The notes under the pieces are model-generated. The model made no database searches and had not been told where the DNA came from. It saw only the letters and a program-made list of their open reading frames with translations. A stretch of 33,177 nt of DNA from the IMG/VR virus record IMGVR_UViG_3300030430_003147, positions 1 to 33,177 of that record. One strand, given 5' to 3'. This DNA comes from a virus. The translations under genes and the position numbers were made by a program. Below are positions 22,725 to 28,058 of the stretch, in pieces (the stretch's first letter is position 1; each line of letters begins with the position of its first letter).

Positions 22725-23882
22725 TTAATTAATTGCGTAAGTTCCGTAGTTGGGACGGCTTAAACGATTTACAACGCTATATCGTAATGCATCTAGCCCG
22801 TGATTAAAAGCGTCTACCGGCTTGTTTGTTAATTGCCCGTTTTTATCTTCTATGTATTTATAGTTCCTTAACTCTTTGATGAGGTTTATAGATCTTTCAG
22901 TAACGAATAATTTATATCTCCTAATCATATCTATTCCTATATTAACAGATCCTTTTATTGTCGGCTTTACGTTCCAACCCATTCGGTATATTTCCTCTAT
23001 TGATTTAGGTTCAGCACTATCGCAAAATACTTCTTCTCTACGATCTATTCCAATTGTTTGTAATTGTTTAGCAATATCTTGATTTGTCATACCCGTTCTG
23101 TATAACAACTCATTTACATACATATTATCTCCCTCAATAAAAGTTTCTACAATTGCAGTTGGATCGTTTGTATAGCCGAAGTCAAGCCCTTTTGCAATTA
23201 GCTTTGCCGTAGTCGGAATATCTTTAATTGTTCTAAAAGTGAATACAAGTGAACGGCTTTTCCCCCTTTCGCCTAGACCATAAACACGCCAATAGTTTTC
23301 ATCTATATCTTGCAGTCTTTCTATCTCCTCAACTACAACTTGATTTAAAAATGGATTGTCTTTGTAAGTGGTTTGAAAAAAATGAACATCGTCCCTTGTC
23401 AATACTTTATCATAGATCCAATGAAATTCTTCAGACGGGTTGTAGTCAATTACAATCTTTTCGGTTGTTCTAAAAATCAGTTGTTGCCAATCTTCAAACG
23501 TTAATTCATTACACTCGTTGATAAACAATAATTCTCTTTTACGCCCACGTATCTTTGTTGGCTGATCTAATGAAATAAATTCTACTCGGTTTCCGTTTAT
23601 CCAATACTCGTGAGTTGTCTTGTAGTGTAGTTCTTCATAGTAGATATTATGAGATTTAAGTATGTCAAAAAAATCTCGCATCACTGTTCCCCTAACTGCC
23701 GGAAACGTTTTTCTAACTATTGTAATTGTTTTATCTGTATTTTGGCTACAATAACTTAACAAGATCCAAAGAAGTATATTATAGGTCTTACCACTTCTCG
23801 TCCCCCCTTGTTCTACTACAATCTTTTTTTTAGAATTAGTAAGGTGTTCAAATACAACGTTTGTTTTAATCTTCTTTATCAA
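22725..23882 (-). CDS. terL: Terminase large subunit, Terminase_3/PBSX-type
   Basis: 385-aa packaging motor and nuclease. ATPase motifs: Walker A GGTRSGKT (26-33), Walker B LLFINECNE (118-126, with the catalytic Glu), and a TTYKDNPFL coupling segment (171-179). RNase H-like nuclease: GLDFGYTNDP (D234), FCDSAEPK (D288) and DAFNHGLDALRY (D357/D364). These three acidic clusters are the metal-binding sites expected in this family. It pumps DNA through the portal and cuts it. The only available start is a TTG at 23882; no in-frame ATG lies upstream before a stop. It overlaps the small subunit gene by 17 nt and is the last gene of the modification/packaging polycistron. Confidence 0.95.
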   Translation of the reverse strand: MIKKIKTNVVFEHLTNSKKKIVVEQGGTRSGKTYNILLWILLSYCSQNTDKTITIVRKTFPAVRGTVMRDFFDILKSHNIYYEELHYKTTHEYWINGNRVEFISLDQPTKIRGRKRELLFINECNELTFEDWQQLIFRTTEKIVIDYNPSEEFHWIYDKVLTRDDVHFFQTTYKDNPFLNQVVVEEIERLQDIDENYWRVYGLGERGKSRSLVFTFRTIKDIPTTAKLIAKGLDFGYTNDPTAIVETFIEGDNMYVNELLYRTGMTNQDIAKQLQTIGIDRREEVFCDSAEPKSIEEIYRMGWNVKPTIKGSVNIGIDMIRRYKLFVTERSINLIKELRNYKYIEDKNGQLTNKPVDAFNHGLDALRYSVVNRLSRPNYGTYAIN

Positions 23883-24219
23883 GGTTTTTTATTATTTCAA
23901 CCTCAAATAATTTAGTACCCTCTACTCCGGTATGTTCTGTTCTTTCAACATACCCCCTTTGTTTGCCTTTCGTTTTTAAATAAAATATAGTAGCACTAGT
24001 ATTGTTTTCGGCTATTTGTCTATGCAATTGACTTTCAGCGAAATCTAAAGCAACGTTTTCTAATTCATCTACTTTCTTTGCAAACTCCGGATCATTATTA
24101 TACCAATCATAATAAGTTGTTCTGCCTACTCCTACATTTTTACAAGCCGAAGTTACTACCCCTAATGATTTTTCAAGGGCTTTAAGTAACGCCTTTTTTA
24201 TGTGTTCGGTTTTGTTCAT
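23866..24219 (-). CDS. terS: Terminase small subunit
   Basis: 117-aa protein with an N-terminal helix-turn-helix (about 18-45: GVVTSACKNVGVGRTTYYDWYNNDPEF), followed by a long oligomerisation helix (AKKVDELENVALDFAESQLHRQI) and KGKQRGYVER, the classic C-terminal transition in phage small terminases. It binds the packaging start site and recruits the large subunit. The ATG overlaps the kinase stop (ATGA) and the stop lies inside the large-subunit start region, so it is coupled to both the DNA-modification and packaging genes. Confidence 0.9.
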   Translation of the reverse strand: MNKTEHIKKALLKALEKSLGVVTSACKNVGVGRTTYYDWYNNDPEFAKKVDELENVALDFAESQLHRQIAENNTSATIFYLKTKGKQRGYVERTEHTGVEGTKLFEVEIIKNLDKED

Positions 24220-24731
24220 TTCTCGATAAGTTTAATTATATAATTTAATATGTCTTTTGCTTCTGTTTGATTATTGTTTGGCATTAAAGTTACATTATTT
24301 TTATTTATTATATTTTGTATTTTAGTTTGTTTAGATTTTTTAAACCTTTCAGTTTGTGTATCGTTTCGTTCTACGTGCCTACTTTCAATAACCTTGCTAT
24401 CTGTTTCAAGTATTATTTTTTCGCATTTTACTTTGTCAAATAAAGATTGGTTAAATAGCCGATCTCCCTCAAATAAAAATGTGCCACGTGGAACTTTCTT
24501 TATTAGTTCAATAAAGTGTGGTTGTACTGCCATACTTAATTTATCCGTCCCACTAAATAATTCGTTTGTATATATTCCAATAATGTATATATTCTTTTGT
24601 CTGTTATACAAACCTTGAACCAATTTATATTTAAACGTTTTTAAGGGCATATAATGTTTTATTATATTTCGCATCAATGTAGTTTTCCCACTTGCCGGAA
24701 TGCCCCCTATTGCTATAATTCTTTCAGCCAT
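24216..24731 (-). CDS. P-loop kinase, probable 5-hydroxymethyl-dU DNA kinase
   Basis: 171-aa P-loop nucleotide-kinase fold. Walker A GGIPASGKT (9-17), Walker B-like strand with acidic residues FLFEGDR (85-91), and an arginine-rich lid (SRHVERNDTQTERFKKS, about 117-133). The size, the P-loop form and the position next to the helical partner gene match the DNA 5-hmdU kinases predicted in thymidine-hypermodifying phages, which phosphorylate 5-hydroxymethyluracil in DNA to create a leaving group. Overlaps the helical-protein gene by 19 nt and the terminase small subunit by 4 nt. A generic polynucleotide or nucleotide kinase is the alternative. I rate the substrate as likely because of context. 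Confidence 0.78.
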   Translation of the reverse strand: MAERIIAIGGIPASGKTTLMRNIIKHYMPLKTFKYKLVQGLYNRQKNIYIIGIYTNELFSGTDKLSMAVQPHFIELIKKVPRGTFLFEGDRLFNQSLFDKVKCEKIILETDSKVIESRHVERNDTQTERFKKSKQTKIQNIINKNNVTLMPNNNQTEAKDILNYIIKLIEK

Positions 24732-25582
24732 TTTTCTTGATAAGTTTCTTTACGGAAGTCCCACAATACAGACCAGTCCACCCCGTTATCTACATTGTTT
24801 TCCATTTTTTCTATTTCTTTTCTTTGTCTTTCAATATAATATCCAATATAACGTTTTCCCTTTCTAAATTTTTTATAGGCACATAAAGTTGTTTCTATAT
24901 TCCAAATGTTTTTATGTTCAATATCTAGTTTTTCAATCTCCTCTTGCAGAAGTTTAAATTGATATTGTAAATATCGGATCTGTCTCGGGTGTAATTTTTT
25001 ATCTATTCCGTGTGTGTCTAATTCGTAATTGCCTAGATAATACACTAAACCATTACGACAACTTTCAGCATTTTTAAGATCTAAATAAGTCGGCTCGAAA
25101 TCATAGCCCGTTAAAACGTTTACCATTTCAAGATATATAAACATAGTGAATCTGCCGAAATTTTTAATTTGTAAAAGATCTTTATAGCAATTATCATATG
25201 TCATTTGTTTCGTTGGTTGTTTTAGTGATTTAAAATAATCTTCTTGTTTAAAATCTCCTAATAAGTTTTTGTAGCTTTCAAACGTTTCAACAAATCTGTT
25301 TTGTGTTTTTACTCGCAGACGATCTGTTTGAAATAAAGTTTTATCTTTGTTCGCATCCCACCACCTTTGTAATCTATCAACATTTACATTTTCGTAATCA
25401 GGGAATTCATTGTAAACATAATATACCATTGTTGCGGAATAGCAAGTTCCAAACAAAAAAGCCAACCAGTAGCGTTGTTCTATATTTAATTCAAAGCGAT
25501 CTGCCACGTATCTTAAACAATCGTTGCTCGGATCAATGTCTTTCGCTTCACTAGATTTAATATGATAGTCTATGTAATCCAA
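24713..25582 (-). CDS. 5-hmdU-kinase-associated helical protein (aGPT-pyrophosphorylase-type family)
   Basis: 289-aa all-helical protein. RYWLAFLFGTCYSATMVYYV (37-56), RLQRWWDANKDKTLFQTDRLR (70-90), FGRFTMFIYLEMVN (142-155) and LDLKNAESCRNGLVYYLG (168-185) match the helical family that accompanies 5-hmdU DNA kinases, also described as alpha-glutamyl/putrescinyl thymine pyrophosphorylase-like. The rest (about 195-280) is charged helices. In known systems the family acts with the kinase in converting 5-hydroxymethyluracil to hypermodified thymine. The start is a TTG at 25582; no ATG lies in frame upstream. It overlaps both the GNAT gene (13 nt) and the kinase gene (19 nt). Confidence 0.75.
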   Translation of the reverse strand: MDYIDYHIKSSEAKDIDPSNDCLRYVADRFELNIEQRYWLAFLFGTCYSATMVYYVYNEFPDYENVNVDRLQRWWDANKDKTLFQTDRLRVKTQNRFVETFESYKNLLGDFKQEDYFKSLKQPTKQMTYDNCYKDLLQIKNFGRFTMFIYLEMVNVLTGYDFEPTYLDLKNAESCRNGLVYYLGNYELDTHGIDKKLHPRQIRYLQYQFKLLQEEIEKLDIEHKNIWNIETTLCAYKKFRKGKRYIGYYIERQRKEIEKMENNVDNGVDWSVLWDFRKETYQEKWLKEL

Positions 25583-25974
25583 TATATATTTTGTTTTTCT
25601 CCTTTTTTTGTAATAGTTACTCCGGCTTTAGTCATTCCCATTTTTAAATAGAATTTATTGCCAACTACATTATCCTCGTTGCATTTTAAAAATATAGGTT
25701 TTTTTAATCTATTAAATAAATCTTTTCCTACCCCTTTTTGAGTTGAGCCGTTTTTTACTGCTATCTCATATATAACATTAGCTTTATATTTCTTACTATA
25801 ACCATATCTAATAAAGCCGTGTTCTTCATATATCTCGTAGGTGTATGGTGTATTGCCCTCTAAAAATTTATCCCAAACCCAAAACAAATTAAAATTACCT
25901 ATGTGCTTTTTATGTTGTTTGTGTAACTCTTTTATAAAAGCTTCATCGTCTTTTGTTGCCTTTCTAATCTTCAT
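25570..25974 (-). CDS. GNAT-family N-acyltransferase in modification cassette
   Basis: 134-aa GNAT fold. Motif A is visible as YEIAVKNGSTQKGVGKDLF (69-87), where QKGVGK (79-84) is the acyl-CoA pyrophosphate loop (Q/R-x-x-G-x-G/A). Further C-terminal, NKFYLKMGMTKAGV (106-119) is the usual FY-K-GF-type motif B. It would transfer an acetyl or other acyl group from CoA to an amine. In this neighbourhood the amine could be on a modified base, but a protein or small-molecule target cannot be excluded. Overlaps the glutamine amidotransferase gene (11 nt) and the helical-protein gene (13 nt). Confidence 0.85.
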   Translation of the reverse strand: MKIRKATKDDEAFIKELHKQHKKHIGNFNLFWVWDKFLEGNTPYTYEIYEEHGFIRYGYSKKYKANVIYEIAVKNGSTQKGVGKDLFNRLKKPIFLKCNEDNVVGNKFYLKMGMTKAGVTITKKGEKQNIYWIT

Positions 25975-26578
25975 ATAATTGATTTGGTTTTAATTGTTCC
26001 GGTTGAAACGATTTATCAACCCTTTTAAATATATCTTTTGTTGATGCGTAGAAAATTGCATTAGAATGACTTAATCTCCATAAAGGTCTATTACTATTCC
26101 TTATTGCTAAAAGTTCATTAGAAGCCGTTAAAATAAGCCCTGCGAACGATCCTTTGATATTTCCAATATAATCTTTTAATAGATCTTTATTAGCCCCGCA
26201 CTTTTGTAAAATTATCTCGCCATCGTTATATGTTTGCATTTTAATTCCGTAATGTAATTCCATTTCTACTTTTGTTCTCATATCTAATACGCCATTAAAT
26301 ACAAGAGAAAGATTATTATTTGCAATTGGTTGGTTGTTTATATGGTCTTGATAATCTCCACTCGTTGCATATCTATTATGGAAAACAATTTTATTTGCTT
26401 GTGGCAATACAACCTCGTCTACATTGTGATATTTTCGTGTTGTTAATTTATTGTTAAGACAATATGAATATCCAAAACTATGTAGCCCTCTAATTTTGCT
26501 TTGATAAATTAGCTTATGTAAAATACTATAATGTTCGTCAATCGGATCTTGAGAACTATAACCTACAACTCCGCACAT
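25964..26578 (-). CDS. Class II glutamine amidotransferase (GATase_6-like)
   Basis: 204-aa Ntn-hydrolase. Cys2 after Met1 (MCGVVGY) would become the nucleophile when Met1 is removed. IRGLHSFGY (29-37), HNRYATSG (67-74, the glutamine-binding Arg/Thr/Gly segment), VFNGVL (93-98, the oxyanion Asn-Gly) and NDGEII (118-123) complete the class II signature; GSFAGLIL (143-150) is the usual core strand. Class II enzymes release ammonia from glutamine, normally for a fused synthase, but no synthase domain is fused here. Glutaminase proteins of this type are reported in phage base-modification clusters. It abuts the TET/JBP gene stop directly. Confidence 0.87.
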   Translation of the reverse strand: MCGVVGYSSQDPIDEHYSILHKLIYQSKIRGLHSFGYSYCLNNKLTTRKYHNVDEVVLPQANKIVFHNRYATSGDYQDHINNQPIANNNLSLVFNGVLDMRTKVEMELHYGIKMQTYNDGEIILQKCGANKDLLKDYIGNIKGSFAGLILTASNELLAIRNSNRPLWRLSHSNAIFYASTKDIFKRVDKSFQPEQLKPNQLYED

Positions 26579-27475
26579 TTAGTTGAGTTTAGATCCACGT
26601 ACCCTTGTTTTTGCTCTAATCATTTCCTCCTCCGAAGTACCACAACTTTTCATTTGTTCCCTATAATACATCACTAGTGATATTCTTTTCGCATCATCGT
26701 CTATTTTATTGATTGGCGTATTACCGTGCCATTGGTGGACATCACATAATAAGAGATCACAATTTTGTAAATCAAAAGCCACCCCCCATTTTGGAATCAC
26801 AAAATACCCACCGGTATATCTGCCACGCCTTAATGCGACTAAATTACCAAAGCCCTCTTGAAAATCTCCTTTGTCTGTATGAACTGCCGTTTGCCAATTT
26901 GAGTTTACGGTAACAGTCGTAAAAGCCGTATTCTTAATTACAAAATCTTGTGAGGTTTTATCTGCCACCTTTCTTTGCTTTTCATAATAAGTTGGCATTA
27001 ATTCCTCGTATTTTGAATCTACAAATTTTATTATCGGGTAAGCTTTTTTAAACTTACTAAATTGTTTTTCATTAAAAGCCGTTTGCCTACAATATGGAAA
27101 TCTAGCGTTGCGATCAAAATAACCTATGATACCACTATTAACACTTGTCATTGCTTGGTTTGTTTTAGATCTTTTCCCATCTTTACGTAATCTGTATTGA
27201 GTTGTATTTCCCTTTTCATCAAACTCGCCACCGGAAAATGGACGATTATTAGTTGGTTTGGCTGCTCCCTTTAAATTGTCAAATGCTTCTTTTGCTATGT
27301 TATTAGGAATTACTTTTTTACGAAATTTTGCTATTGGTTTGTTGCTTACTGCACAATATACGTCTGCATCGTAGGTTATTAAAGTATTGTAATCACTTTC
27401 GTTTAATAGCGTTCCGGCTAGTTTTTTTGCTTGTTCATCGGTTAATCGGGGTTTAATATATAATTCAGCTGCCAT
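26579..27475 (-). CDS. TET/JBP-family 2-oxoglutarate/Fe(II) DNA dioxygenase
   Basis: 298-aa protein with the TET/JBP double-stranded beta-helix signature. FPYCRQTAFN (126-135) and FSKFKKAYPIIKFVDSKY (139-156) precede the core: NTAFTTVTVN (182-191), AVHTDKGD (197-204; H199-x-D201 metal ligands), GGYFVIPKWGVAFDL (222-236) and CDVHQWHGNTP (244-254; H247 or H250 as third ligand), then KRISLVMYYRE (263-273) with R264 for 2-oxoglutarate. JBP enzymes hydroxylate thymine in DNA to 5-hydroxymethyluracil; TETs oxidise 5-methylcytosine. As no cytosine methyltransferase or dUMP hydroxymethylase is seen, thymine is the likelier substrate. Located between the ParB-like and GATase genes. Confidence 0.85.
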   Translation of the reverse strand: MAAELYIKPRLTDEQAKKLAGTLLNESDYNTLITYDADVYCAVSNKPIAKFRKKVIPNNIAKEAFDNLKGAAKPTNNRPFSGGEFDEKGNTTQYRLRKDGKRSKTNQAMTSVNSGIIGYFDRNARFPYCRQTAFNEKQFSKFKKAYPIIKFVDSKYEELMPTYYEKQRKVADKTSQDFVIKNTAFTTVTVNSNWQTAVHTDKGDFQEGFGNLVALRRGRYTGGYFVIPKWGVAFDLQNCDLLLCDVHQWHGNTPINKIDDDAKRISLVMYYREQMKSCGTSEEEMIRAKTRVRGSKLN

Positions 27476-28058
27476 TTTTTATTTTATTTATATCTTCTAT
27501 AGCCCTATAAATAGTATCTGTTAGGTTATCGCTTTTGTAATGTTTTCTTAAATTTAATTCCCATTCTCTAAAGTTCGGCTCGGTAGTTGTATCTAAAAAC
27601 AATTGCACCATTTTAACGTGGCTTTGTTCGGCTTCATCTTCGGGGTAGTCGTACTCTCCAGTATCTTCTATTTCAGAATTAAAAGCCGTATCTTCCCATT
27701 TAGGAATATCCAAGCCCCACTCTTTTAAATAATCTACATTCCACTCGTTTGCTAAAACGTCCCAGTCCCAATCGCCAAAACTTGAATTATCTTTAATAAT
27801 AAATTCTTTTTCTTGATCCTCGTTTAGATCTACTTCGTGTATCCAAACTTGTTTAATACCGGCTTCAATACAAGCTTTTAATCTCATATTACCACCTAAC
27901 ACTACCATATCTTTATTTACAACGATTGGTCTAATAGATAGCATTTCCGGAAATTCTTTTACGCTTTTTACAAGCTTCTTGAATTTATAGTCTTTAATAA
28001 TTCTTGGGTTATTCGGGTTTTCCTTAACCTCTTTAATACTTACTTTTTTAGGTTTCAT
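27465..28058 (-). CDS. ParB/Srx-like N-terminal domain protein
   Basis: 197-aa protein. Residues 1-95 form a ParB-type domain: NPNNPRIIKD (14-23), KLVKSVKEFP (28-37), then RPIVVNKDMVVLGGNMRLKA (43-62), where GGNMRLKA replaces the canonical GxRRxxA, and WIHEVDLNEDQEKEFIIKDN. The C-terminus (about 120-190) is acidic (YDYPEDEAEQSH), then a helix, with no helix-turn-helix of plasmid ParB. Phage versions of this domain commonly neighbour DNA modification genes and may have nuclease or nucleotidase activity or help target enzymes to DNA. First gene of the polycistron, behind the late promoter element. It overlaps the dioxygenase gene by 11 nt. Confidence 0.8.
   Translation of the reverse strand: MKPKKVSIKEVKENPNNPRIIKDYKFKKLVKSVKEFPEMLSIRPIVVNKDMVVLGGNMRLKACIEAGIKQVWIHEVDLNEDQEKEFIIKDNSSFGDWDWDVLANEWNVDYLKEWGLDIPKWEDTAFNSEIEDTGEYDYPEDEAEQSHVKMVQLFLDTTTEPNFREWELNLRKHYKSDNLTDTIYRAIEDINKIKNGS

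Follow-up and report, generated by a model that had tools for sequence, protein, structure and literature searches.

Introduction

In the accepted view of phages M6, ViI and phiW-14, 5-hydroxymethyl-2'-deoxyuridine (5-hmdU) is incorporated during replication and is phosphorylated afterwards, within the DNA, to 5-phosphomethyl-2'-deoxyuridine (5-PmdU), which is then converted into an amino acid adduct. A related gene set has been published for the Rhodococcus phage Tonitrus, in which a ParB protein, a TET dioxygenase, a member of the amino acid:DNA transferase family (ADDT) and a kinase form a predicted thymidine hypermodification system (PMC11955845). Here, we analyzed a 33,177-nt stretch of viral DNA (IMG/VR record IMGVR_UViG_3300030430_003147; hereafter the window, to which all positions refer) that contains a six-gene cassette encoding these four kinds of protein together with a free-standing glutaminase and a GNAT-like protein. 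That the products of this operon convert thymine in the already replicated phage DNA into a hypermodified base is, with all later steps included, somewhat probable, and a core of thymine, TET, kinase and ADDT can be proposed with considerably more confidence.

The kinase and the ADDT of the window are homologous to those of M6, ViI and phiW-14, but these three phages make 5-hmdU before replication by means of a thymidylate-synthase homologue, and neither a TET nor a glutaminase-ADDT pair was found in them. In Tonitrus, genes for ParB, a TET-like J-binding protein, an ADDT (aGPT-Pplase2) and a 5-hydroxymethyluracil DNA kinase are clustered as well, and its complete genome contains no thymidylate-synthase homologue; in contrast to the window, this cluster, whose function is predicted only, has no annotated glutaminase or GNAT and contains gp8 instead. 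The fold of the window ADDT resembles that of the glycinyltransferase (8z2m) which, with a flavin-dependent lyase (8z2o), forms the PaMx11 route to 5-aminomethyl-2'-deoxyuridine (5-NmdU), and sister phages of the window hold homologues of both enzymes of this route, whereas the window itself lacks the lyase and has a glutaminase and a GNAT. Related TETs are present in the Methylophilales phage Melnitz (L045:4010-8090) and the Nonlabens phage P12024L (L041:16409-18674). Unlike the window, Melnitz combines its TET with an HhaI-type C5-methyltransferase and is likely to represent a cytosine version of the system, while in P12024L the genes after the TET encode a TET-associated glycosyltransferase and an N6/N4 methylase. 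CmoY-type ligases that contain a glutaminase domain have been proposed to hypermodify phage DNA with ammonia derived from glutamine (PMC12783734), but those are fused AMP-forming ligases acting on carboxymethylcytosine, whereas the glutaminase of the window is free-standing beside an ADDT. Phage 9g has a glutaminase-QueC enzyme.

The cassette is conserved and encodes a genuine TET dioxygenase

The cassette consists of six minus-strand open reading frames between positions 24216 and 28058 (Table 1). As the original prediction, made from the letters of the window, had stated, the genes overlap or abut, neighbouring ones sharing 11, 0, 11, 13 and 19 bases in turn. The same gene order was seen again in dozens of separate contigs and is therefore far beyond chance: the cassette is real and conserved. 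Scans against Pfam and PHROG agreed with the predicted identities of the ParB-like protein, the class II glutaminase and the P-loop kinase, although the ParB_N match lies under the Pfam cut-off and it is the PHROG ParB families that give the strong match. The ParB-like gene adjoins the cassette in nearly all relatives.

The 298-aa protein matched the Pfam Tet_JBP model with 95.4 bits (cut-off, 34.9), and homologues that are 65-79% identical to it are present on 38 viral contigs. Its predicted iron ligands and 2-oxoglutarate-binding arginine, H199-x-D201...H250...R264, are invariant in 42/42 sequences. Sequence searches of the PDB did not yield convincing relatives, but the predicted model (mean pLDDT 82) matched the fold of TET2 with a Z-score of 21.3 (root mean square deviation (rmsd) 3.4, 263 residues aligned), so that the expected TET-like fold is borne out. 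Next to the iron ligands, position 204 is occupied by either D or N and was not used for inferring base preference.

The 289-aa protein belongs to the ADDT family and is accompanied by a 5-hmdU-type kinase

The 289-aa protein had been labelled a 5-hmdU-kinase-associated helical protein (HMUDK). This label appears to be wrong. The protein matched the Pfam ADDT model PF18724 with 72.2 bits (cut-off, 26.2) and also aGPT-Pplase3 (1.3e-5), and no HMUDK model was present among its Pfam matches up to an E-value of 1. The predicted model of this short-form ADDT, which we named ADDT-A (mean pLDDT 96), matched 8z2m, the solved 5-PmdU glycinyltransferase, with a Z-score of 19.4 (rmsd 3.2, 253 residues aligned), and the next entry scored 9.8. 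Because this match lies far above that to the next fold, the likely substrate base is 5-phosphomethyl-uracil; the relabelling therefore changes the expected product, and the pathway points to thymine.

Neither the sequence of ADDT-A nor its own profile identified solved relatives; these were reached via the fold and via the profile of ADDT-B, the form present in sister phages (see below). A profile built jointly from ADDT-B and the proteins of M6, Tonitrus and Cr30 matched the glycinyltransferase 8z2m (7e-52) and the ADDT 25qc (1.6e-87). ADDT-A and ADDT-B have in common DIDP, Y57, R88, G143, A172, G178 and ETxLC; many other positions are conserved inside each type but not between the two.

The kinase matched Pfam Ploopntkinase3 (1.1e-4) under its cut-off and PHROG family phrog_800 more strongly. 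The same family contains gp54 of phage M6 (2e-39), which we take to be a 5-hmdU DNA kinase, and hhalign aligned the window kinase with those of M6, Tonitrus, Cr30 and Melnitz at 99.9% (2.2e-32). Residues G10, G15 and K16 and the motif EGDR are invariant among relatives. Proteins of this type (phrog_800; for instance L046:13686-14249) are often annotated as small terminase, as are M6 gp54 and LilMcDreamy gp5, the latter under the name 'terminase small subunit'.

TET and thymidylate-synthase homologues largely replace each other

No thymidylate-synthase homologue (PF00303) was detected in the window or in 22 records of relatives, which are fragments, nor in 18 further virus records, LilMcDreamy, MementoMori and Ottawa, nor in Tonitrus, P12024L, HTVC112P and Melnitz. 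An ADDT together with a thymidylate-synthase homologue and without a TET was found in M6, ViI, phiW-14, Vibrio 207E48.1 and D506, whereas Tonitrus, LilMcDreamy (both complete records) and the window group have a TET and an ADDT without the synthase. Thus, among ADDT phages, the TET and the synthase homologue largely replace each other.

C5-cytosine methyltransferases were likewise absent from the window, with one partial match in 23 records and short matches in 2/15 further virus records; one relative (L040; G006:C1:10483-10845) has a partial C5-methyltransferase-like reading frame. Outside Melnitz, all matches in the searches for a cytosine route were scattered and partial. The original prediction, according to which neither enzyme is seen and the dioxygenase probably acts on DNA in situ, agrees with these results. 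In situ hydroxylation of thymine is the best reading of the gene content, because the TET is genuine, a synthase homologue is absent, and the C5-methyltransferase matches are scattered and partial.

The glutaminase is paired with one ADDT subtype

The glutaminase begins with MCG, and residues C2, R69, N95, G96 and D119 are invariant in 31 sequences. Its nearest solved relatives by sequence are PurF enzymes (1.2e-5 in the PDB), in which ammonia displaces pyrophosphate. We tallied distinct proteins using models built from the window genes; with a single glutaminase sequence as query one locus was found, and with an alignment 80. The glutaminase gene lies immediately upstream of the short-form ADDT for 77/77 distinct ADDT proteins and, conversely, the ADDT comes next after each of 144/144 glutaminase genes, setting aside the window locus that ends before the ADDT. 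The pairing also holds in a lineage with the rearranged order ParB, small kinase, glutaminase, ADDT and TET, and in gut prophages. Four long-form myophage ADDTs (those of ViI, Cr30 and two Vibrio phages) have no glutaminase immediately upstream, and none was found in any ADDT-B locus. Since the glutaminase is tied to ADDT-A and is nearest to PurF, the pair suggests a PurF-like transfer of ammonia to 5-PmdU.

The original prediction did not single out this pair; it proposed a distinct branch of base hypermodification. The combination of ParB, TET, ADDT and kinase had already been published for Tonitrus, so that this branch is new in part only. The obligate glutaminase-ADDT pair looks like the distinctive part relative to the Tonitrus set. 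The GNAT accompanies 48/81 distinct ADDT proteins tallied and is missing from several relatives, and therefore fits an optional last step.

Sister phages exchange the middle genes of the cassette

In relatives spanning the region, the positions of ParB, TET, kinase and terminase are constant and only the middle genes differ. The window belongs to type A, with a glutaminase, usually a GNAT, and ADDT-A. Type B has a 240-aa ADDT-B and an FAD-type protein, whereas type C has nothing but a 241-aa ADDT-B. The FAD-type protein matched the flavin-dependent lyases 8z2o (1.4e-6) and 8z79 (1.1e-5), and judging from these similarities ADDT-B and the lyase relative are probably the enzymes of the thymidine pathway that leads via glycine to 5-NmdU. 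We propose that the ammonia route of type A would reach the same aminomethyl product that type B would reach via glycine and the lyase.

Proposed pathway and alternatives

In the proposed pathway, the TET would hydroxylate thymine at its methyl group within the DNA, giving 5-hmdU, which the P-loop kinase, as suggested by its homology to phage 5-hmdU DNA kinases, would phosphorylate to 5-PmdU. The ADDT would then replace the phosphate with a nitrogen nucleophile, in keeping with the chemistry of its family and with the fold matched by its model. By analogy with PurF, the likeliest nucleophile here would be glutamine-derived ammonia supplied by the glutaminase, with 5-NmdU as product, an assignment we make tentatively; the ADDT may alternatively attach an amino acid, with the glutaminase working on that amino acid or on a precursor. 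Where present, the GNAT would acylate the new amine, and the product would be expected to block host restriction nucleases.

Several points weigh against this pathway. Phage Cr30 has a TET, an ADDT and a canonical-looking thymidylate synthase, and Melnitz, with a C5-methyltransferase, a TET and a related kinase but no ADDT, indicates that a TET-kinase pair is usable on cytosine. The contigs of the window group are all linear fragments, and missing genes could lie outside them, which makes the absences supportive, not conclusive. The pair counts come from related sequences and are not statistically independent events. The GNAT gave a GNAT-like match, as had been predicted, but its 21.1 bits fall under the Pfam cut-off of 23.6. 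Finally, ammonia as the nucleophile and the modified nucleoside itself are predictions.

The alternative in which the ADDT, like those of known phages, attaches glycine, glutamate or glutamine to 5-PmdU, after which the glutaminase hydrolyses or exchanges an amide on the new substituent and the GNAT adds a cap, is in line with the modelled fold of the ADDT, which is that of a glycinyltransferase, and with the existence of class II glutaminase folds that are stand-alone amidohydrolases, such as EgtC. We consider it possible but rather unlikely: it leaves unexplained why the glutaminase always occurs with one ADDT subtype and never with the other, and no ATP-using synthetase is present here with which a free-standing glutaminase could amidate a carboxylate.

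The Melnitz genes, together with the fact that known phage TETs reportedly work on 5-methylcytosine, would fit a TET acting on 5-methylcytosine made by a methyltransferase of the host or by an unseen one of the phage, with the kinase and the ADDT decorating 5-hydroxymethylcytosine. This is improbable, given the near absence of C5-methyltransferases described above, the lack of an ADDT in Melnitz itself, and the relationship of the ADDT and the flavin lyase relative to enzymes of uracil and thymine pathways. The weak Pfam matches of some members would also be compatible with a cluster that acts on tRNA or small molecules and does not modify DNA, but this is scarcely credible in view of catalytic residues that are invariant in dozens of relatives, the conserved gene order, and folds of DNA-acting enzymes.

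If the proposed pathway is true, TET enzymes would start thymine hypermodification on finished DNA, small phages that lack a nucleotide metabolism of their own could make armoured bases, and glutamine ammonia would be a new nitrogen source for DNA chemistry. The exchange of ADDT-glutaminase for ADDT-flavin lyase round a constant TET-kinase core leads to testable product predictions for each sister phage.

Host, neighbouring genes and other loci

The cassette belongs to a group of aquatic phages. Their host is probably a member of the Bacteroidota, because the window portal protein matches only that of the Nonlabens phages P12024S/L (37%), the sole cultured phages with a similar portal, the large terminase is nearest to that of Parabacteroides phages, and most upstream regions are AT-rich and have no obvious ribosome-binding motif.

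Table 1. Genes of the cassette, its neighbours and the variant loci of sister phages
Feature	Position	Strand	Details
ParB-like domain protein, first cassette gene	27465..28058	-	197 aa; Pfam ParB_N 4.8e-4, phrog_620 2.7e-24
TET/JBP Fe(II)/2-oxoglutarate dioxygenase	26579..27475	-	298 aa; Pfam Tet_JBP 2.8e-27; H199, D201, H250, R264
Class II glutamine amidotransferase (glutaminase) domain, free-standing	25964..26578	-	204 aa; GATase_6 7.6e-9; Cys2 nucleophile
GNAT acyltransferase (putative), optional member	25570..25974	-	134 aa; Acetyltransf_10 3.3e-4, under curated cut-off
Short-form ADDT (ADDT-A)	24713..25582	-	289 aa, TTG start; PF18724 6.6e-20
P-loop kinase, 5-hmdU DNA kinase kind	24216..24731	-	171 aa; phrog_800 2.8e-12
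Small terminase subunit, neighbour outside the chemistry	23866..24219	-	PHROG small terminase 1.2e-8; overlaps kinase gene by 4 bases
Large terminase subunit, neighbour outside the chemistry	22725..23882	-	Terminase_3 4.1e-22
Sister phages with ADDT-B and flavin lyase relative, or ADDT-B alone	L002:8888-10386, L011, L022, L033:4791-5516

A prophage in a Prevotella metagenome-assembled genome (L188:5869-11115) and another genome from the same family (L197:6722-12373) encode, in order, ParB, glutaminase, ADDT, kinase, GNAT and a radical S-adenosylmethionine (SAM) protein, and a TET is absent from both of these gut genomes. L197 also appears, on reading its sequence, to encode a SAM-synthetase-like protein. 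Weak similarity links the radical SAM protein to gp53 of M6 (E-value 0.001), and a close solved relative was not found. It may be an oxygen-free replacement of the TET or, instead, a product-tailoring enzyme. When viral contigs were searched with the ADDT from the gut genomes, one short match was all that emerged, and the radical SAM link therefore rests on two bacterial genomes. A general scheme, in which glutaminase and ADDT homologue form a PurF-like two-part enzyme that follows an in-place TET, and in which the radical SAM protein takes over the oxygen-dependent TET step in the prophages of gut anaerobes, is for now a doubtful extrapolation.

Beside its large terminase gene, the Mycobacterium phage LilMcDreamy (L131:855-4333) has genes for a TET, an ADDT, an Asp/Asn beta-hydroxylase-like protein and a kinase. 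In the Pelagibacter phage HTVC112P (L042:6973-9195), ParB, TET and an FkbM methyltransferase lie in a row, an arrangement possibly related to O-methylation of hydroxymethyl bases.

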